Under the pieces are notes generated by a model, which saw only the letters and a list, made by a program, of their open reading frames with translations, made no database searches and had not been told where the DNA came from. A stretch of DNA of 64,000 nt from Pseudomonas sp. BSw22131 (GTDB lineage Bacteria; Pseudomonadota; Gammaproteobacteria; Pseudomonadales; Pseudomonadaceae): positions 4,960,001 through 5,024,000 of the forward strand of contig NZ_CP113949.1 of NCBI RefSeq assembly GCF_026810445.1. The letters are read 5' to 3'. Below are positions 24,459 through 34,285 of this stretch, piece after piece (position 1 is the first letter of the stretch; every line of letters starts with the position of its first letter). The position numbers and the translations under genes were made by a program.

Positions 24459-24887
24459 TCACCGGCTCCAGCATGTGGCCGTCGTTGCGTTTCCCGTCAT
24501 ACCGGTATTGCTGCGGGCTCCCGTATTGTCGATCACGAAACTGCCGCACCTATCTCCCACCATCGTGCCAGTCGGCGTGGCGGTAAGGGTGAATGCTTGG
24601 GGATTCGTACGATTGGCAGCAATCGTGTAGAAACCATTACCCGCAGGAATAGCGAGCGTCACTGCAGGTACCGATCCCGCAGCAGCGACATCCGCATAGG
24701 TCCCGTTTCGCGAATAAAACCGCTCAAGGCTTTGAGTGACTTCGGACAACAGTCCGGCGATTTCCGAACGGTGGGTGCGCCTGACGTATTCGGTGTAGCT
24801 GGGGTAGGCAATCGCCGCGAGGATACCGATGATAGCCACCACAATCATCAGCTCGATGAGGGTGAAGCCTGAAAATTTACGACGCAT
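24459..24887 (-). CDS. pilE: Type IV minor pilin PilE (cluster 1)
   Basis: A 142-residue prepilin. The class III leader is MRRKFSG, cut by PilD after Gly7; mature Phe8 is followed by TLIEL with Glu12 at the +5 position, then a hydrophobic helix. Two cysteines (GDRCGSF and TATCWSR) can close the C-terminal D-loop. PilE joins the minor pilins to the major pilin and primes assembly. It is last in the first minor-pilin cluster, 12 bases after pilY1. The copy at 30425-30859 is a clear paralog. Confidence 0.93.
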   Translation of the reverse strand: MRRKFSGFTLIELMIVVAIIGILAAIAYPSYTEYVRRTHRSEIAGLLSEVTQSLERFYSRNGTYADVAAAGSVPAVTLAIPAGNGFYTIAANRTNPQAFTLTATPTGTMVGDRCGSFVIDNTGARSNTGMTGNATTATCWSR

Positions 24888-24899
24888 GATTCACATTCC

Positions 24900-27800
24900 T
24901 TACTTGATTTGGCGCCACATGATGCGTCGGTTCAACAAGCCGCCTAACTCAAGCAGTTGCAGGGGCTTGGTAGGATCACCGCTCAAAATAAGACTCTGAT
25001 TTCCGTTTTCTTTATTCAGCGTTGCCGCCAGATACGGCACGCCGCCACTGACCAGCAAGCCGCTGGCGGTACCATCAGCACTGTTGATTACATTGTCACC
25101 GTTACTATCGAGAACAGGATAACTGAGCATTTTGCCGCTCAATGCATCCAGATCTACAAATCGGCCAGACCCCGAACTGGAACACAGGTCAGCCGTATCA
25201 ACGATGGCGGTGGTAAAGCGCACCCGGCCAAAGGCGAGATCTGCGGCGTAGATGACCCGTTCACCCGTTGCCACGTTGTTGTAGATCAACGGGAGATAGA
25301 AACCCTTCTTGGCGGCATAGTTGACGTCGTTCTGGGTTGTAGTGAAGAACTGGCCCGCCGAGCCGCTATAAACCCCGTTGATTGCCTGTGCTACCAGATC
25401 GCTTTCACGGTAGTTGGCAGTCGTGCCGTCATTGTCCCAAATAGCGTAGAAAGCCTGAGTCGTCTTCGTTGTTTTGTCAGCGACTTCCAGCAATTTCCCA
25501 GTACCGAAGTACACCATCTTGCCGCCATTTGGGTTATTACCCACAATCGGTTGCGCAGTGATGGGCTGGTTAGCACCACCTGATGCCACGAACAGCGGGC
25601 TGCCGCCCAAGCCAACTTTCCCGGTAGGCGCAGCGGTCGTAGTGAAATCGAACTTCCACATCTGCCCTTTCAGATCTCCGCCATAAGCGTACTGGACGAC
25701 GCTTTGCGCATTAACCCGCAGCCTCACCGAAGACAGGCCATTGTTACCGGTAATGTCGACGGGAATCTCCTTGATTAGCGACCCGTTACTGACATCGACA
25801 ACAAACAGCGACGCGACGCCATTGGTGCTTCCGTAGCCGTTGGCGATAAATGCAGCCCAGCGACCATCAGGTAATTGGGCGACTTCCGGTTTGGCATACG
25901 CATACCCCATGTTTGCGTAGCCCGTGGTAGTGCTGCTGATATCCCAAAGCGCATTTACTGCGTTTGAACCAGAAGCATTAAACAGCTGCAAAGCATAGAA
26001 ACCCTTGCCACCCGCACCCACACCACCCAGCGCCAAGGTCTTCCAGGAAGAGGAGAACTGAACATCGACGATGGACACCTGCCCGTCAGCCAGGAACTTG
26101 TGGGACACCCCATTCACGTAGGCGGTATCCGCTACATAGTGGAGGTTAGGCAGAACAGTGGATGGCATGTAGGCATACCGTCTATTACCATTTGATGGAT
26201 TGATCACATTGACCAAACCATCATTGGCGTTGACGACTATGTTTTGATCCATCGACGCCGCTTTGACGTCCAGATAGGTGGTGTAACTGTTATCGGCTGC
26301 CGGGTCCGAAGCCAGGATGTCCGATGGAGAGGCGAAAGCCAATGGGGAGTTGATCACATCGCCCAGTAAAACAGTACGAGTTTTAAGGCCGGTCTTGTTT
26401 GTGCCCTTGCTCCACTCCACCAGGTCAGAGCCAGTTATCCCTGAAGGGAGGTTCGAGTTGAGGACGGTCTTCTGCGCAAGTGAAAAACTGTTGTAGGAAA
26501 GGGGGATGACGCTACTGGTGGCAGCGTTCCAGGACTCATACGTCGCGCTCGCAGCAACGGTGCCGGGGACGATTTGTCTATCTGTCGTCCAGTTCGGGGA
26601 AGCCGTGTTGACCGTTCCGTCTGCTCCAATCGCCAGTGATTTGATCGTGCCCCGCCAGTCGGTCGGATCATATTGGGTTTGATAGAACACGCTGCTGCTG
26701 GACAACGAAGATGAGTCCGAAGCCGCGCCACCGCCGGTGCCCGCCCTGGAAGTAATGTCATTGAGTGCCGCCGATAGAGCGGTGTTCAAGCCAGCGCTGT
26801 CGGTGGCCTGATAGTAAATGCCCTTACCATTATTAGCCGCGTTCAAGAGCATTTTATTGGCGGCGGTGAAACCTACCGTGTAGGTGAACAGATTCTGTTT
26901 GGTGAAATCGGCGGCGTCCCAACTCTTGCTGGCAGCGTCGGTGCCTCCAATGCGCATATCAATGTCGTAAGCGAACTTTGCGATGTCGTCGAGATAGAGC
27001 GTATCGCCCTCACCGTCACCATTCAGATTATCGCCATCATCATCGTTCGGATCCCAGTTAGGTATGTTTGTGCCACCCAATGGATCATTGGCCGGGAACG
27101 TCCGGTCATAGGTTGGCAAGCCGTCGGTGATGACCACACCATAATTCTTCTGGCAGCGGTACTGGATGGGGCTGGTGTACGTAGTCGGCACTGTGTTGTA
27201 GTAAGGGGCCATACCGCGAAAGTAACGGGTGATCTCGTAGTAGGTTTCCGCCAGCGGGGTGTTGGCAATGGCTGCCAGACCCGAGATCGATGAGATCAAA
27301 TCGTTGTAGTTCTTTGTCGCCTGATCAGAGGTCGTGGTGGTCGTCTGGGTAAGGTCAGTGATGGCGCGCGCAATGTTGCCGCCCGGGCCCGGGTTACTGT
27401 TGGTCGGTGCGTTGAAGGTTGCAAGTCCGATACGCAGATTTCGATTGCTGGTCACGAGCGCCGAAGACACGTTACGCGCTACGTTGATTCGGTAATCATT
27501 GGGAATCGTGCTGTCGTTGGTGTAATCCTTTTTCGACAAGTTCGTCGCTGAAATCAGGTAACTGATGTAAGCGGTGGTGTAGCGGGTATTGCCATTCCCA
27601 ACCGGGTCCGGGAGCCGGAGACAGACAATACTATTGGTCGAGACCTTGTAAAAGCCGTCGTACCCCGAGGAACATCCGCCCCGCCTCAAATTGCCGACAA
27701 AGTAGTTAGTGTTATCCATGTCCAGTGCATTGATGAAGTCGCAGTCATTGTCAGAACTGCAGTTGTAAACCTGCACCGGAGTCGCATTAGGATTAAACCC

Positions 27801-28007
27801 GGCGGCCCAGATAATGCTGTTCATACTCCCGGAGTCGTCGACCAACAGCATCACGTTCGGTGTCACAGAACCGGCCGTCAACAGCGGCGAGTCTGAAGGG
27901 ACGAACGCCGCATAGGCCGTGGCTGCTCCGTATAGCCCGAAGAACACCCCGGCCCACAGTTTGGCAAACCATAGCCACTCATTGCGATATGACTTAACGC
28001 TTGGCAT
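24900..28007 (-). CDS. pilY1: Pilus tip adhesin/assembly protein PilY1
   Basis: A 1035-residue secreted protein. A signal peptide (to about residue 34) is followed by a von Willebrand A-like domain with the metal-binding DDSGSMN near residue 57. The middle holds acidic stretches (DPNDDDGDNLNGDGEGD) and the C-terminal half is the PilY1 beta-propeller, with an EF-type calcium loop DSNGDNVINSAD at about 967. The protein ends NRRIMWRQIK. PilY1 caps the pilus, promotes extension and adhesion, and acts in surface sensing. I start at ATG 28007, which overlaps the end of pilX by 14 bases. By eye the gene is lower in G+C than its neighbours. It is shorter than P. aeruginosa PilY1. Confidence 0.93.
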   Translation of the reverse strand: MPSVKSYRNEWLWFAKLWAGVFFGLYGAATAYAAFVPSDSPLLTAGSVTPNVMLLVDDSGSMNSIIWAAGFNPNATPVQVYNCSSDNDCDFINALDMDNTNYFVGNLRRGGCSSGYDGFYKVSTNSIVCLRLPDPVGNGNTRYTTAYISYLISATNLSKKDYTNDSTIPNDYRINVARNVSSALVTSNRNLRIGLATFNAPTNSNPGPGGNIARAITDLTQTTTTTSDQATKNYNDLISSISGLAAIANTPLAETYYEITRYFRGMAPYYNTVPTTYTSPIQYRCQKNYGVVITDGLPTYDRTFPANDPLGGTNIPNWDPNDDDGDNLNGDGEGDTLYLDDIAKFAYDIDMRIGGTDAASKSWDAADFTKQNLFTYTVGFTAANKMLLNAANNGKGIYYQATDSAGLNTALSAALNDITSRAGTGGGAASDSSSLSSSSVFYQTQYDPTDWRGTIKSLAIGADGTVNTASPNWTTDRQIVPGTVAASATYESWNAATSSVIPLSYNSFSLAQKTVLNSNLPSGITGSDLVEWSKGTNKTGLKTRTVLLGDVINSPLAFASPSDILASDPAADNSYTTYLDVKAASMDQNIVVNANDGLVNVINPSNGNRRYAYMPSTVLPNLHYVADTAYVNGVSHKFLADGQVSIVDVQFSSSWKTLALGGVGAGGKGFYALQLFNASGSNAVNALWDISSTTTGYANMGYAYAKPEVAQLPDGRWAAFIANGYGSTNGVASLFVVDVSNGSLIKEIPVDITGNNGLSSVRLRVNAQSVVQYAYGGDLKGQMWKFDFTTTAAPTGKVGLGGSPLFVASGGANQPITAQPIVGNNPNGGKMVYFGTGKLLEVADKTTKTTQAFYAIWDNDGTTANYRESDLVAQAINGVYSGSAGQFFTTTQNDVNYAAKKGFYLPLIYNNVATGERVIYAADLAFGRVRFTTAIVDTADLCSSSGSGRFVDLDALSGKMLSYPVLDSNGDNVINSADGTASGLLVSGGVPYLAATLNKENGNQSLILSGDPTKPLQLLELGGLLNRRIMWRQIK

Positions 28008-28521
28008 AAATACTTTCCACCACGGTTCGCGAGTTGCCCTGCAAGCCAACGCCGGTTATTCGATAAAGCGTCCAGGATTTACTTTCATCCGTACCCACCA
28101 GATTGATGTTGACGGGGTCCCTGGTTGTCGCAAATTTTTGAACGGCATAATAGCCAGTGATCCGAGATGCCCCTGCAACCGTAATACTACTTGCCACCCA
28201 CGTAACGCCAGAGACGCCGCTGGTTCCCGCTGCAACCACACTGCTCGCATCCGGTGGTGGCGCGCATTTGCTGCAGACAAGCAATTTGTAGCTGCTCAAT
28301 TGAACAACTGACTCGCCAGCGCGCACCGCCGCCTCCGCATACTGAAAGGACTCATTTCGCAGTTTTACGCTGCCCGACATTTTTTCCTGCAGGTTTGCGT
28401 TCTGCATTGATGAAATGCCAATCAATGTGAGCAGCAAAAGAAATATCAGGCTGACAATCAGCGCCATCCCTTTTTCGGCGCCCTTGATCGGCGCCCTCGG
28501 TTTGTTCCCGGATAAGCTCAT
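27994..28521 (-). CDS. pilX: Type IV minor pilin PilX (cluster 1)
   Basis: A 175-residue PilX. The leader MSLSGNKPRAPIKGAEKG is cut before Met19; the mature helix starts MALIVSLIFLLLL and, as usual for PilX/GspK-type tips, has no Glu at +5. The conserved SMQNANLQEKMSGS stretch follows. The C-terminus is ESIYAKR. It sits in the minor pilin tip complex with PilV, PilW and PilY1. Its end overlaps pilY1, so both are translated from one transcript. Confidence 0.92.
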   Translation of the reverse strand: MSLSGNKPRAPIKGAEKGMALIVSLIFLLLLTLIGISSMQNANLQEKMSGSVKLRNESFQYAEAAVRAGESVVQLSSYKLLVCSKCAPPPDASSVVAAGTSGVSGVTWVASSITVAGASRITGYYAVQKFATTRDPVNINLVGTDESKSWTLYRITGVGLQGNSRTVVESIYAKR

Positions 28522-28532
28522 TCGGACTTCAC

Positions 28533-29225
28533 CTAATTAATCAGATTGCGCAAAGCAGCCAGCACACTGAACGTCTGGTTTTCAACTTTCCCGGTCGCAT
28601 CTTTCAATTCAATGGTGAGTCGCACGCTGCGGACTGCATCGGTAGCGGCAAGGCTCGTCGCATACTTGGTAACGACGGTGTCCGAAGTCGTATTCGCCAA
28701 ACCGAACAGCACAGAAAAACTGTTGACGTTATTGACGATGACAGCGCCTCCCAGCGTTATCTGACCGTTTGCAAACTGGTAAACAAGCTGGCGCACCGGA
28801 AAAGCCAACTGACTGGCTGTGGGACTACCAACCCCGGAGACGGCGGTGGCCGAAGACTTGCAGTCGGACAGGACTGTCCAGGTCGGGATGCCGCCGTTGC
28901 TTCCGACATCCGCCGTTACCAGCGTGAGTGTTTTTGTCGAGCTGTCCCAGCGGATAGGCGTGCGCTCGGCAGCTGCAAAATCCGCGTTAGTGCTTGAGTC
29001 CTTCACGGTATCCAGACAACCAAACATGCCCACCATACGTATTTCCTGAGTCATCTTGGTCAGAATGAAACGAGCATCCTCTTGCATGACCGCTGCTGCG
29101 TTCTGCGAAGCGTATGTGTTCTTTGCGCTGATAAATATCTGAAGAATGCCAGCAACGACAATCAGCCCCAACACCAGAGAGATCATGATCTCGATCAGGC
29201 CAAACCCTTGGGCACTGCGCTTCAT
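28533..29225 (-). CDS. pilW: Type IV minor pilin PilW (cluster 1)
   Basis: A 230-residue prepilin with leader MKRSAQG, mature FGLIEIMISLVLGLIV and Glu at +5. The EDARFILTKMTQEIRMVGMFGC segment is the PilW family mark. It overlaps pilV by four bases (ATGA) and leads to pilX after 11 bases. The paralog at 31373-32065 has the same length. Confidence 0.92.
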   Translation of the reverse strand: MKRSAQGFGLIEIMISLVLGLIVVAGILQIFISAKNTYASQNAAAVMQEDARFILTKMTQEIRMVGMFGCLDTVKDSSTNADFAAAERTPIRWDSSTKTLTLVTADVGSNGGIPTWTVLSDCKSSATAVSGVGSPTASQLAFPVRQLVYQFANGQITLGGAVIVNNVNSFSVLFGLANTTSDTVVTKYATSLAATDAVRSVRLTIELKDATGKVENQTFSVLAALRNLIN

Positions 29226-29686
29226 GGCGTCACCACCTTGGCGTCGATGGCAACCCGGCTGGTAACGGTAAAGGTTTGCATCGTGCCCGCTTTATTAGTT
29301 GCACGAGAGTCATTCCAGATGACAGAAACAGTGACCTGCCTGTTGGTGACGGCAATGCTGCCGTCGCCCGAAGGGCCCGCGAACGTTTTTATGTTGTTGG
29401 AAAAGTCGAAAAGATCCTGAATCTTCGGGGTGTTCAAATTGCCGGCCGAAGGTGCCGAAGCCAGGGAAGCCAGACGGTAATCAGCATCGGGGTTGGCGCG
29501 TATACGGTCCATCATGTCGTAGGCGACAAAGCTGGCCTGGCTGCTCAGTGTGGAGCTGTCGGTGTATTTAAGCGCATTCAACTGAAGCGCGGCCGCTCCC
29601 AACAACCCAATCGCAAGGATCAGCACAGAGACCAGTATTTCGATCAGGGTCATCCCTGTTTGCCTGGCACATAATCCGTTGCGCAT
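29222..29686 (-). CDS. pilV: Type IV minor pilin PilV (cluster 1)
   Basis: A 154-residue prepilin with leader MRNGLCARQTG and mature MTLIEILVSVLILAIGLLGAA, Glu at +5. I start at ATG 29686, six bases after GGAGG; an upstream in-frame TTG would break that spacing. The ALQLNALKYTDSSTLSSQASFVAYDMMDRIRANPDA region is the PilV family mark. The start overlaps the fimT-like stop (ATGA). Confidence 0.91.
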   Translation of the reverse strand: MRNGLCARQTGMTLIEILVSVLILAIGLLGAAALQLNALKYTDSSTLSSQASFVAYDMMDRIRANPDADYRLASLASAPSAGNLNTPKIQDLFDFSNNIKTFAGPSGDGSIAVTNRQVTVSVIWNDSRATNKAGTMQTFTVTSRVAIDAKVVTP

Positions 29687-30153
29687 CAGCAACCTCCACC
29701 CAGCACAATACGACCGGTCAAGCAGATATTGATAAAGCGGATCGCGGTGCTGCGCGTGTAGTTGGCCGTCACAGCGCTGGCCGTGGTCAGGCCCCCGAGA
29801 TTATTGAAGTCCAGAGCCGTGGGCGTCCCGCTCAGCACCAACGCTGAACCCGTGTCCATCGCCGCCAGGTTACGGAGGATTTTTTCCGGTGTGACTGCGG
29901 GATCGATAACTTTCAGAGCGGTATTCCAGGCAGCACCCGCGACAGTCGGTGTGACGCGAATAGTTGTCCCGCTATTTATTGCTTCCTGCCGTGCGTAGTT
30001 CAACACGCGCTGGAAGTCGCTGATTTCTGTGTCGGCTTTGGTGTTGAGAATAGACGTCGTGAAGCTTGGGATTGCGATAGCCGCCAGGATCCCTATCAAC
30101 GTTATCGTCACTAATAATTCAACCAGCGTAAAACCTTCAAAACGCTTGGACAT
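29686..30153 (-). CDS. GspH/FimT-type minor pilin (FimU-like, cluster 1)
   Basis: A 155-residue prepilin with leader MSKRFEG and mature FTLVELLVTITLIGILAAIAIP. Two cysteines near the end (INICL and GGGC) could form a disulfide loop. It heads the first minor-pilin cluster (fimT-like, pilV, pilW, pilX, pilY1, pilE). The position matches fimU of P. aeruginosa. The 271 bases upstream (30154-30424) hold no gene and should contain the promoter; I see no clear sigma54 or AlgR site there. Confidence 0.9.
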   Translation of the reverse strand: MSKRFEGFTLVELLVTITLIGILAAIAIPSFTTSILNTKADTEISDFQRVLNYARQEAINSGTTIRVTPTVAGAAWNTALKVIDPAVTPEKILRNLAAMDTGSALVLSGTPTALDFNNLGGLTTASAVTANYTRSTAIRFINICLTGRIVLGGGC

Positions 30154-30424: not shown

Positions 30425-30859
30425 TCACCGCCCCCAACACCCCAAAACGCTGGCATCCCCCGACAGTCCTGAGTTATCTCGTCTGCCCGTGTTTTCAAGC
30501 ACGAAACTTCCGCACGTATCCCCGCGCATCAGCGAGCCTTTTGGTGCGGCAGTGAGTACAAAGGTTTGCTCGGTTCGCTGCGACGCAACGGTATAAAACG
30601 CGTTGCCTTCCGAGACCTGATGCTCACGCGCAGGCGGTCCGGCGAAGTCGGTGTATTGCGCGGTTTTTGAGTAGAACCGCTCCAGCTTCTGCGCTTCTTC
30701 AGTCAACAGGGCGGCGATCTCGGCGCGGCGGGCTTTTTTGACGTACTCGGTGTAGATGGGATAGCCGACGGCGGCCAGGATGGCGATCACACCGATCACT
30801 ACCATGAGCTCGATCAAGGAAAAGCCTGCATTGCGCCCGCTGCTGGCGGCCACTTTCAC
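30425..30859 (-). CDS. Type IV minor pilin PilE (cluster 2)
   Basis: A 144-residue PilE paralog. The start is GTG 30859, overlapping the TGA of the preceding gene (GTGA). The leader is MKVAASSGRNAG, longer than in cluster 1, and the mature protein begins FSLIELMVVIGVIAILAAVGYP with Glu at +5. Cysteines GDTCGSF and LGCWGR match the disulfide of the first copy. It ends the second minor-pilin cluster. The two PilE proteins share the overall layout but differ at many positions. Confidence 0.9.
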   Translation of the reverse strand: MKVAASSGRNAGFSLIELMVVIGVIAILAAVGYPIYTEYVKKARRAEIAALLTEEAQKLERFYSKTAQYTDFAGPPAREHQVSEGNAFYTVASQRTEQTFVLTAAPKGSLMRGDTCGSFVLENTGRRDNSGLSGDASVLGCWGR

Positions 30860-31362
30860 TGCCGTTGACGCCACATAATGCGGCGTTGATCGGTATGCAC
30901 GCTTTCCAGCACTGTACGGGCATCGCCCTGAATCGCGACCGCTGTGACGCGATAAAGCACCCATGCCTCGTCCTCGCCCGCAGGACCGGCGTTGACCGGA
31001 TCGCGGGTGGTGGCGAAGTTTTGCAGTGCGTAGAAGCCTCCTTCGGCAGCGATCCACTTCACGACCTCACCCCCCGCACCTGCATGTTCCAGCGTCAACG
31101 CCTCAGGTGGCGGGCCACAAGTGGCAACCGAGCCGCAGCGCGGCAGCGCGACCCCCGCTGTTTTCACCTTGGCCTCTCCAGCCCTCAGCACACGTTCGGC
31201 CAACTGGAAAGATGCTTGCCGACGGTTGAGGCTGCCGGCCATTTTTTCCTGGAGCGTTGCGTTTTGCAGAGAAGACAGGCCGAGCATCGTCAGCAACAAC
31301 AAAAAAACCAGGCTGACGATCAGCGCAGTGCCGCGTTGATCGGTGGCGAAATGAGCAGTCAT
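30856..31362 (-). CDS. Minor pilin PilX with a PilY1-like C-terminal tail (cluster 2)
   Basis: A 168-residue PilX paralog (ATG 31362, preceded by GAGGTG). The leader is MTAHFATDQRG and the helix begins TALIVSLVFLLLL; the LQNATLQEKMAGS stretch matches cluster 1. Where cluster-1 PilX stops (ESIYAKR), this copy continues ESVHTDQ and then RRIMWRQRQ. That tail is nearly the same as the last residues of PilY1 (RRIMWRQIK), with 18 of 21 identical bases over RRIMWRQ and only third-position changes. I infer an in-frame deletion that removed pilY1 and fused its last codons to pilX. Confidence 0.88.
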   Translation of the reverse strand: MTAHFATDQRGTALIVSLVFLLLLTMLGLSSLQNATLQEKMAGSLNRRQASFQLAERVLRAGEAKVKTAGVALPRCGSVATCGPPPEALTLEHAGAGGEVVKWIAAEGGFYALQNFATTRDPVNAGPAGEDEAWVLYRVTAVAIQGDARTVLESVHTDQRRIMWRQRQ

Positions 31363-31372
31363 GAAAGGCACC

Positions 31373-32065
31373 TCAACCGAGCCGATTGCGTAAAGCGGCG
31401 ACCATACTGAACGTCTGTTCTTTGACCCGTTGCGCAGGGTCAGACAACGTCAATGTGATGCGTACGCTGCGTATCAGCGCAGGGTTGTCCGGGGCTTCGA
31501 CGTAGCGCGAAACGAGTCTTTGAGCAGGCGAGTCTGCGACACCAAAAAGCACACTGAAGGCGCTGACATTGCTGATAAGCGCTGCCCCGTTCAGCCTCAA
31601 GTCAGCCGCCCGTGCATTGAACGCATAAACGTGCCGCTGAACCGGAAAGCTCAGTTCTCCCACCCCAGCGCCTTGGGAATAGGCAGTTGCCGCCATGGCG
31701 CAATCGGTGCGGACGGTCCAGACCGGCTCGCCTTGTTGCCCGTCAACGCTGGCCGTGACCAGCGTCAGGCTCTGAGCGCTCGCCTGCCAGTGAATCGGGT
31801 TTTGGAATGCACCGGCGAAGTCGCCTTTATCACTGGCATCCCTCACCGACGCCAGACACCCAAACGTGCCCACCATGCGAATGTCCTGCGCCAGCTTGTT
31901 GAGCACAAACCGCGCATCCTCTTGCAGGTTCGCGGACGCCATCTGGCTCAGATACGTGTCCTTCGAGCTGATGAACATCTGCGTGAGCGCCACTGCCATC
32001 ACCAGACTCAGCGTCAACGCCACCATCAGCTCAATCAAGCCAAAGCCTCTCGAGCGACGACTCAC
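31373..32065 (-). CDS. Type IV minor pilin PilW (cluster 2)
   Basis: A 230-residue PilW paralog with leader MSRRSRG and mature FGLIELMVALTLSLVMAV. EDARFVLNKLAQDIRMVGTFGC aligns with the first copy (EDARFILTKMTQEIRMVGMFGC), and both end in an MVAALRNRLG / VLAALRNLIN type tail. It overlaps the pilV paralog by four bases, the same spacing as in cluster 1, so the whole block was duplicated or inherited as a unit. Confidence 0.91.
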   Translation of the reverse strand: MSRRSRGFGLIELMVALTLSLVMAVALTQMFISSKDTYLSQMASANLQEDARFVLNKLAQDIRMVGTFGCLASVRDASDKGDFAGAFQNPIHWQASAQSLTLVTASVDGQQGEPVWTVRTDCAMAATAYSQGAGVGELSFPVQRHVYAFNARAADLRLNGAALISNVSAFSVLFGVADSPAQRLVSRYVEAPDNPALIRSVRITLTLSDPAQRVKEQTFSMVAALRNRLG

Positions 32066-32523
32066 GGCGTGCCTCCCGCGCCGACCGATACAACGCTGCT
32101 GAGCGTGTACGTTTCCAGCTGACCGTTTTGCCCGGAGCCGCGGGCGTCGCTCCAGTCGATTGCGACTGTCACCGCGTCGCCGGCAACCGAGATTCGGCCA
32201 TCAGCAGTGTCGCCTGCCATCTGCCGGACATTCATGGCGAAATCGAACAGGTCTTGATGTCGAGGATTGTCGAGGTCCGCCGAGGTTGGCGCCTGGCTCA
32301 ACCCGGCAAGTGCATAGCTGGCATCCGGGTTCGCCCGCATGCGCTCAAGCATGTCCTGAGCGATGAAACCCGCTTGGGTGCGGCGTAACGCGCTGTCGGT
32401 ATATTTGAGGGCATTGATCTGCACCGCAGCCGCGCCCAGCACGCCGACGGACAGAATCAGCAACGCAACCATGACCTCAATCAGCGTCATCCCTGACTGA
32501 TCACTTCCCTGTTTTAGCGTCAT
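32062..32523 (-). CDS. Type IV minor pilin PilV (cluster 2)
   Basis: A 153-residue PilV paralog. The start ATG 32523 follows GGAGAC and gives leader MTLKQGSDQSG with mature MTLIEVMVALLILSVGVLGAA. The INALKYTDSALRRTQAGFIAQDMLERMRANPDA stretch tracks the first copy. It heads the second cluster; no fimT-like gene precedes it on this strand. An open frame runs on upstream without pilin features. Confidence 0.9.
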   Translation of the reverse strand: MTLKQGSDQSGMTLIEVMVALLILSVGVLGAAAVQINALKYTDSALRRTQAGFIAQDMLERMRANPDASYALAGLSQAPTSADLDNPRHQDLFDFAMNVRQMAGDTADGRISVAGDAVTVAIDWSDARGSGQNGQLETYTLSSVVSVGAGGTP

Positions 32524-32741: not shown

Positions 32742-33251
32742 TTGAGACAGTCAGGGTTCACGTTGGTGGAGTTATTGGTGGTGTTGGTACTGATCGCGAT
32801 CATCGCAGGGATTGCGCTGCCAGCGTTCAACAGTCTGATTGAATCGCAACGCCGCCAGGATGCCGCTCAACAGTTGGTCAGTGGAATTCGCATGGCCCGG
32901 GCAGAGGCCATCGCGCGCAATCAGGTGGTGGTCATCGCGCCGATCAAAGGAGAATGGAGCCTTGGCTGGACGACCTTCGTTGACACCAATCGCAACGGAT
33001 TGATGGATGACGATGAACCCTCACTGGCAGAACGTTCGGGTTACCGAAACGTCAAGGTAGCCGCCAACAGCAAGGTGAAACACTCGATTGCCTTCGACAG
33101 CACAGGCGGTTCCACCAACAGTGGTACGGGTAACGGCACGTTGTTCATCTGCGAGAAAGGCCGAGCGGCCAGCCAGCATCGCGTGATATTGGCGCCGTCC
33201 GGGCGAACCCGGATTGCGAACGATGAGGTTATAACCGCGTTGTGCGGCTAA
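32742..33251 (+). CDS. GspH/FimT-type pseudopilin, divergent (cluster 2)
   Basis: A 169-residue prepilin with a five-residue leader (MRQSG) and mature FTLVELLVVLVLIAIIAGIALP. The body has ARAEAIARNQVVVIAPIKG and a WTTFVDTNRNGLMDDDEP loop that resembles a calcium-binding turn. Two cysteines (FICEKG and ALCG) may pair. The start is TTG 32742, eight bases after GGAGG. It is divergent from the cluster-2 pilV and converges on ispH, unlike the fimT/fimU arrangement of P. aeruginosa where all lie on one strand. Confidence 0.88.
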   Translation: MRQSGFTLVELLVVLVLIAIIAGIALPAFNSLIESQRRQDAAQQLVSGIRMARAEAIARNQVVVIAPIKGEWSLGWTTFVDTNRNGLMDDDEPSLAERSGYRNVKVAANSKVKHSIAFDSTGGSTNSGTGNGTLFICEKGRAASQHRVILAPSGRTRIANDEVITALCG

Positions 33252-33255
33252 GGCC

Positions 33256-34203
33256 TCACAGCAACGACTTGACCCGCAGTTCTTTAGGCATCGAGAACGT
33301 GATGTTCTCTTCACGGCCAGCCAGCTCATCAGCGCCGACCGCGCCCCACGCCTGCAGTTGTTGAATCACGCCACGCACCAATACTTCCGGGGCCGATGCG
33401 CCGGCCGTGATGCCAATGCGCTCGACACCGTCGAACCAGCTGCGCTGCATGTCTTCGGCGCCATCGATCAAATACGCAGGCGTTTCCATGCGCTCAGCAA
33501 GCTCGCGCAGACGGTTTGAGTTGGAGCTGTTCGGGCTGCCCACCACCAACACCACGTCGCACTCATCAGCCAGTTGCTTGACCGCGTCCTGGCGGTTTTG
33601 CGTGGCGTAGCAAATGTCGTCCTTGCGCGGCCCGCCAATGCTCGGAAAACGCACACGCAAGGCGTCAATCACTCGACTGGTGTCGTCCATCGAAAGCGTG
33701 GTCTGGGTCACGAATGCCAGCTTTTCAGGATTGACCACTTGCAGATTAGCGACGTCTTTTTCGTCCTCAACCAGATAGATGGCGCCACCACTGCTGGCGT
33801 CGTACTGGCCCATGGTGCCTTCGACTTCGGGATGCCCTGCGTGGCCTATCAAGATGCACTCATGGCCATCGCGGCTGTAGCGCGCCACCTCGATGTGTAC
33901 CTTGGTCACCAGCGGGCAGGTGGCGTCGAATACCTTGAGGCCACGGCCAGCTGCTTCTGTACGCACGGCCTGGGACACGCCGTGAGCACTGAAAATCACG
34001 ATGACGTCGTCCGGCACCTGATCGAGCTCCTCGACGAAGATCGCGCCGCGAGTACGCAGGTCTTCAACGACGAATTTGTTATGAACCACTTCGTGGCGCA
34101 CATAGATCGGCGGGCCAAACACTTCCAGTGCGCGATTGACGATTTCGATCGCGCGGTCCACCCCGGCGCAGAAGCCACGTGGGTTGGCGAGCTTGATTTG
34201 CAT
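33256..34203 (-). CDS. ispH: 4-hydroxy-3-methylbut-2-enyl diphosphate reductase
   Basis: A 315-residue iron-sulfur enzyme, the last step of the MEP isoprenoid pathway, giving IPP and DMAPP. The three cluster cysteines are Cys12 (RGFCAGV), one in DATCPLV and one in [10 protein letters not shown]; the HGVSQAV and [11 protein letters not shown] motifs bind the diphosphate. I start at ATG 34203 ([15 protein letters not shown]). It follows fkpB on the same strand, as in E. coli and P. aeruginosa. Confidence 0.96.
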
Positions 34204-34285
34204 GATGTGCCTCGTATCTACGCGCAGTGAAACATATAAACGAAAAGGCCCCGACCGAAGCCGAGGCCAAGTGCGCCGCGACTCG

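Follow-up and report, generated by a model that had tools for sequence, protein, structure and literature searches.

PilY1 is a large adhesin and a proposed mechanosensor. In an unrelated pilus system, the donor-strand complemented pilins of the chaperone-usher pathway, laboratory constructs exist in which the missing strand is given in cis by fusion, resulting in a stable subunit. For PilX and PilY1, beta-strand addition has been modelled: according to one report (PMC11046646), a stretch of eight residues at the C-terminus of M. xanthus PilY1 forms a strand in the PilX sheet, and according to a second one (PMC13190605), strand complementation is predicted in four complexes, including that of N. 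gonorrhoeae. The locus described here lies in a window of 64,000 nucleotides, the whole stretch of DNA that we analysed (positions 4960001-5024000 of the 5.74 Mb genome of Pseudomonas sp. BSw22131, contig NZ_CP113949.1), whose relatives are Pseudomonas. Its minus strand carries two adjoining minor-pilin clusters: cluster 1 (fimT-pilV-pilW-pilX-pilY1-pilE, 24459-30153) and cluster 2 (pilV-pilW-pilX-pilE, 30425-32523), beyond which lie a divergent fimT and ispH. The PilX of cluster 2 (PilX2) ends in a tail, RRIMWRQRQ, that resembles the end of the cluster-1 PilY1. We propose that PilX2, a natural fusion, probably carries its own PilY1 docking strand and makes a PilY1-free tip.

What this locus shares with the M. 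xanthus and N. gonorrhoeae models is that the C-terminal residues of PilY1 are a predicted strand on PilX; there, however, a separate protein, the large PilY1, provides the strand, whereas here it lies within PilX, in an operon without PilY1. In its position, the tail of PilX2 corresponds to the predicted PilX-docking strand of PilY1; the Myxococcus PilY1 strands given in PMC11046646 are unlike RRIMWRQ in sequence. The minor pilin pair PilA-PilC of S. sanguinis differs in consisting of two chains with no PilY1, and its PilA was compared with the I subunit of tip complexes and not with the subunit at the very tip (PMC9934059). Fused PilX resembles the chaperone-usher donor-strand fusions in its cis-supplied strand, but the fusion is a natural one and its strand in cis a prediction. 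Among the titles and abstract openings listed in a literature search, none described a fusion of PilX with PilY1 or the very short PilY1 proteins treated below (mini-PilY1).

PilX2 was identified by its PilX_N domain (PF14341, E=1.4e-9, 38.2 bits at a cut-off of 25.5), and its place in the operon, after pilV2-pilW2 and before pilE2, fits PilX. For the C-terminal PilX domain PF13681 no match to PilX2 was listed, and PilX1, the paralog from cluster 1, itself reached 21.9 bits against a 27-bit cut-off. The gene starts with ATG at 31362, with an in-frame GTG at 31371. The prepilin glycine is present, and mature position 5 is Val, not Glu (QRG/TALIV, read by eye); PilX and GspK both lack Glu5 (PMC7541494). 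The protein ends in LESVHTDQRRIMWRQRQ and the cluster-1 PilY1 in LLNRRIMWRQIK, the last nine residues being RRIMWRQRQ and RRIMWRQIK, while PilX1 stops at ESIYAKR. Over the RRIMWRQ codons the two genes are identical in 18 of 21 bases, and all three changes are silent. These observations of the first-pass annotation were thus confirmed. A degenerate DNA pattern for RRIMWRQ occurred in the 5.74 Mb genome at two places only, pilX2 and pilY1, and the reversed control nowhere; we therefore rejected a chance match. Plasmid origin was also rejected, the single plasmid match being weak (39.9% identity).

To follow the distribution of the tail, we compared 98 distinct PilX genes, taken from 100 loci in addition to the window; the sample is uneven, 80 named loci having been chosen for their likeness to PilX2. 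The tail was present in 14 genes, and in all 14 pilE came directly next with no pilY1 between. The other 84 PilX are tailless and end in ESIYA.. or variants of it; 77 of them precede a pilY1 match (two of these loci having a mini-PilY1 and four a shortened PilY1), whereas pilE comes next in the other 7. PilY1 of this type ends in [RQ]RIMWRQ with few exceptions among the listed proteins (K or G in first place in L082 and L093, V for I in L111, L for M in the mini-PilY1 of L118). The PilY1 of clusters in inverted orientation is of another type with a different end (e.g. NGRQTWRAIPSP). In the IQ-TREE phylogeny of PilV, PilW and PilX from 97 clusters, the 14 tailed clusters form one group requiring one change, with a support of 99 in the Shimodaira-Hasegawa-like approximate likelihood ratio test (SH-aLRT); the same split was supported by only 0.487 in a FastTree run. 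This tree is without 11 loci, ten of them from the same contigs as named loci and L043, whose duplicate status was not established. The fused clade, which includes P. graminis and P. petrae, fits a single event. In an even sample of the genus, the fused type was found in at least 12 of 398 genomes; genome counts for the fused and mini types, here and below, are lower bounds from the matches listed. After midpoint rooting, cluster 2 forms a branch of its own, away from the other clusters, and cluster 1 is spread over three places, which speaks against cluster 2 being a recent copy of cluster 1.

A further PilX with a PilY1-like end was recognised in genome G079 by its match reaching residue 166. 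It ends in ESIQANAGNPSEAGGGSRRIMWRQIQ, and pilE starts 12 nucleotides past its stop codon. It groups in the phylogeny (SH-aLRT 100) with L110 (Pseudomonas sp. FEN) and L127 (P. gingeri), its nearest relatives, both of which possess a full pilY1; with G079 added, the fused state needs two changes. Starting at the GGGS codons and continuing past the stop to the pilE start, the G079 DNA closely matches the 3' end of pilY1 and the start of pilE in L110 and L127. This junction thus shows the deletion route directly. From the junction sequence and the tree, we conclude that G079 is a second, independent PilX-PilY1 fusion. The genome also encodes PilB and, on a different contig, a single other PilY1.

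The first-pass annotation had derived the PilX2 tail from PilY1 through loss of pilY1, and had named a tailed PilX beside an intact pilY1 as the counter-example. None of the 77 PilX followed by pilY1 carries the tail, and this absence, the single clade and the G079 junction all support the derivation. Strains with a cluster-2 type operon still bearing pilY1 were looked for as it had suggested, and none was found among the genomes examined. It had also held that the deletion left the overlap with pilE intact. The overlap does exist, since the pilX2 stop overlaps the pilE2 start in GTGA (30859-30856), but its retention from an ancestor is not established, the evidence across pilY1 ends being mixed. 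The stop codon of the pilY1 in the window, TAA, lies 12 nucleotides before pilE1, and most listed pilY1 genes end in TAA or TAG, stop codons with which an overlap of this kind is impossible. Among four close relatives (by eye), the cluster-1 pilY1 of L032, L033 and L039 ends in ATGA with an in-frame pilE reading and that of L036 does not.

The proposed selection test on the fused gene was positive. Over the 14 fused genes, the ratio of nonsynonymous to synonymous differences (pN/pS) was 0.144 in the tail versus 0.393 in the rest, with similar pS (0.620 versus 0.644), and only 12 of the 149 nine-codon windows of the fused gene had a pN equal to or below that of the tail. Among the best 120 of 956 homologues, the tail is C-terminal in 102. 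Four of its residues, namely R in second place and W, R and Q, are invariant in all 102, and the linker before the tail has four residues in every one. Because synonymous variation in the tail is much like that elsewhere in the fused gene, the constraint is on the protein, and we conclude that the tail is under protein-level purifying selection.

We suggest that a neighbouring pilY1 was lost almost entirely through an in-frame deletion, which fused the pilX codons (...ESVHTDQ) to the last nine pilY1 codons. In PilY1, these nine residues would be a C-terminal docking strand that completes the PilX beta-sheet at the pilus tip. In the fusion, the strand would fold back in cis, forming a hairpin on the last PilX strand, and PilX would therefore be complemented by its own chain. 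The PilV-PilW-PilX-PilE tip set of cluster 2 would then function with no dedicated PilY1, and its PilX would be unable to take up PilY1 by strand docking. The only match to the PilY1 beta-propeller (PF05567) in the genome is the cluster-1 pilY1, and cluster 2 is without it. We infer that the cluster-2 tip is PilY1-free and that strand completion lets the minor-pilin set assemble.

The AlphaFold2 model of PilX2 (predicted local distance difference test, pLDDT, 88.0; predicted template modelling score, 0.74) predicts a cis strand: the tail is a strand at residues 161-167 with a pLDDT of about 91, following a strand at 148-156 with none at 157-160. In a weaker model of PilY1 alone, which carries two residues ahead of the likely ATG, the tail is unstructured. 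Foldseek gave no significant match for the PilX2 model. Predicted PilX2 aligns to its last residue with ComZ and with XcpX, a minor pseudopilin of type II secretion and the GspK of P. aeruginosa. In a sequence search against solved structures, PilX1 had no match and PilY1 matched only 3hx6; the match does not cover the tail, since its best stretch is 545-988 of 1044.

The tail could instead act in trans, remaining free and docking on PilX1 or an adjacent minor pilin and thereby linking the two sets or competing with PilY1. Such contacts are possible because all 14 fused loci adjoin another, PilY1-bearing cluster (seven on the same strand, seven inverted with a PilY1 about 30% identical) and exactly one match to the PilY1 propeller is present in each of the 12 fused genomes; the longer linker in G079 is compatible with trans and cis alike. 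However, the single-chain model places the tail as a confidently predicted cis strand, and a four-residue linker of constant length in 102 homologues also argues against it, so we consider action in trans unlikely. As to the inverted clusters, in L034, L037, L038, L053, L057, L059 and L063 they replace cluster 1 at the same spot and the fused cluster 2 stays; their PilY1 is larger, with open frames of 1446-1557 in five genomes.

A little less likely still is that the tail codons are kept for pilE translation, through coupling or the RNA of the start region, and not for the protein. All 14 fused genes stop with TGA, and an in-frame ATGA or GTGA start of pilE is possible in 12 of them. In PilY1 and mini-PilY1, moreover, pS is lower in the tail codons (0.206-0.406) than in the preceding ones (0.431-0.653), perhaps a second constraint at the DNA or RNA level for the pilE start. 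This is not so in fused PilX, where the pS of the tail is about that of the rest and the amino acids are fixed; two of the 14 (L057 and L063) are without the overlap, this and the count of 12 being judged by eye, and in G079, where pilE starts some way past the stop, the tail is retained. The similar pS disfavours pilE translation as the sole reason for the tail.

That the tail is a neutral scar left since the deletion is very improbable: it is short and stands at the very end of the gene, but its low pN/pS, matched in pN by few windows, the four invariant residues and its retention after two independent fusions contradict this. Equally improbable is a tail native to PilX or acquired by gene conversion from the cluster-1 pilY1, for although the two tails in the window agree in 18 of 21 bases, 84 of 98 PilX are tailless, including all 77 before a pilY1 match, which rejects a native tail, and fused tails differ from their own pilY1 by a mean of 4.0 of 21 bases (7 loci) and from that of other loci by 4.36 (42 pairs), with no sign of local conversion.

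The docking-strand reading gains from relatives in which PilY1 was reduced in other ways and the same tail was retained. Between pilX and pilE, only a remnant of pilY1 is left in 9 of the 80 named loci. Eight of these (L056, L088, L096, L100, L109, L113, L118 and L120) have an intact open reading frame of 108-152 residues, mini-PilY1, which begins where pilY1 normally does or close by and ends in RRI[ML]WRQIQ, the middle of PilY1 being deleted; in L094 mini-PilY1 is frameshifted and pilE matches in two pieces. PilY1 of 652-656 residues with the N-terminal part gone is present in L075, L078, L079 and L083; proteins of about 650-670 residues without this part were also seen in genomes G274 and G264. 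In the genus sample, the main mini class (open frames of 142-177) occurs in at least 11 of 398 genomes (G151, G137, G232, G172, G021, G277, G128, G088, G246, G243 and G275) and another mini-PilY1 form in G073 and G061; five of these 13 were individually checked. The mini state needs three changes on the tree. A protein search gave 40 mini-PilY1s, all 40 ending in RRIMWRQIQ; no Pfam domain was listed for any of them, and the database names shown were hypothetical or uncharacterized protein. The tail had a pN of 0.000 versus 0.270 for the rest in the first mini type (8 sequences, two identical) and 0.029 versus 0.391 in the second (4 sequences), the set comprising reading frames from 12 of 19 mini loci (L096 and L135 identical); full PilY1 was sampled in 20 of 59.

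PilB scored above its curated cut-off in all 12 fused genomes and in all 29 full-PilY1 genomes, which were chosen by hand, but in none of the 13 mini genomes, nor in G274 and G264 with a shortened PilY1; PilQ is kept in all 15. No PilY1 propeller match was found anywhere in the 13 mini genomes. Mini-PilY1s are thus found in genomes without a dedicated extension motor, and fused PilX in genomes with one. In G034 and G389 the PilY1 propeller matches are split over two open frames, and in G034 PilB is in two pieces as well. Retention of the same tail in relatives that shrank PilY1 otherwise suggests that it is the part that the pilus tip cannot lose. More tentatively, it is possible that such operons never dispense with the nine-residue strand, alone among the parts of PilY1, whether PilY1 is full, N-terminally shortened, mini or, twice, fused; that fused PilX is a self-licensed, adhesin-free tip initiator; and that mini-PilY1 serves a PilB-independent minor-pilin set.

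The features of the locus are collected in the table. In cluster 1, the start codon of pilY1 (ATG, 28007) lies within the end of pilX1, so that the two genes overlap.

Table. Features of the two minor-pilin clusters and their surroundings, in window positions
Feature	Position	Strand	Evidence or remarks
pilX2 (PilX minor pilin with in-frame PilY1 tail, 168 aa)	30856..31362	-	PF14341; AlphaFold2 model
Tail RRIMWRQRQ, PilY1-derived	30859..30885	-	RRIMWRQ codons 30865-30885; stop TGA 30858-30856
Linker HTDQ, predicted turn from the PilX C-terminal strand to the tail strand	30886..30897	-	homologue linker lengths; AlphaFold2 model
pilE2	30425..30859	-	PF16732, PF07963; GTG 30859, second GTG 30853
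pilW2	31373..32065	-	
pilV2	32062..32523	-	
fimT-like gene, divergent, between cluster 2 and ispH	32742..33251	+	
ispH	33256-34206	-	
pilY1 (cluster 1)	24900..28007	-	PF05567 E=4.6e-46; RRIMWRQ codons 24909-24929
pilX1 (cluster 1), tailless, ends ESIYAKR	27994..28521	-	
pilE1	24459..24887	-	
pilW1, pilV1, fimT1 (cluster 1)	28533..30153	-	

Fused, mini and shortened forms would make up a natural deletion series, in which nearly all of PilY1 appears dispensable except nine residues, and these can be moved onto PilX. Such a series would distinguish a function of the tail in docking or licensing from the adhesion and sensing attributed to the rest of PilY1, and the fused and mini genes may serve as short natural constructs for studying the role of the tail in environmental Pseudomonas.
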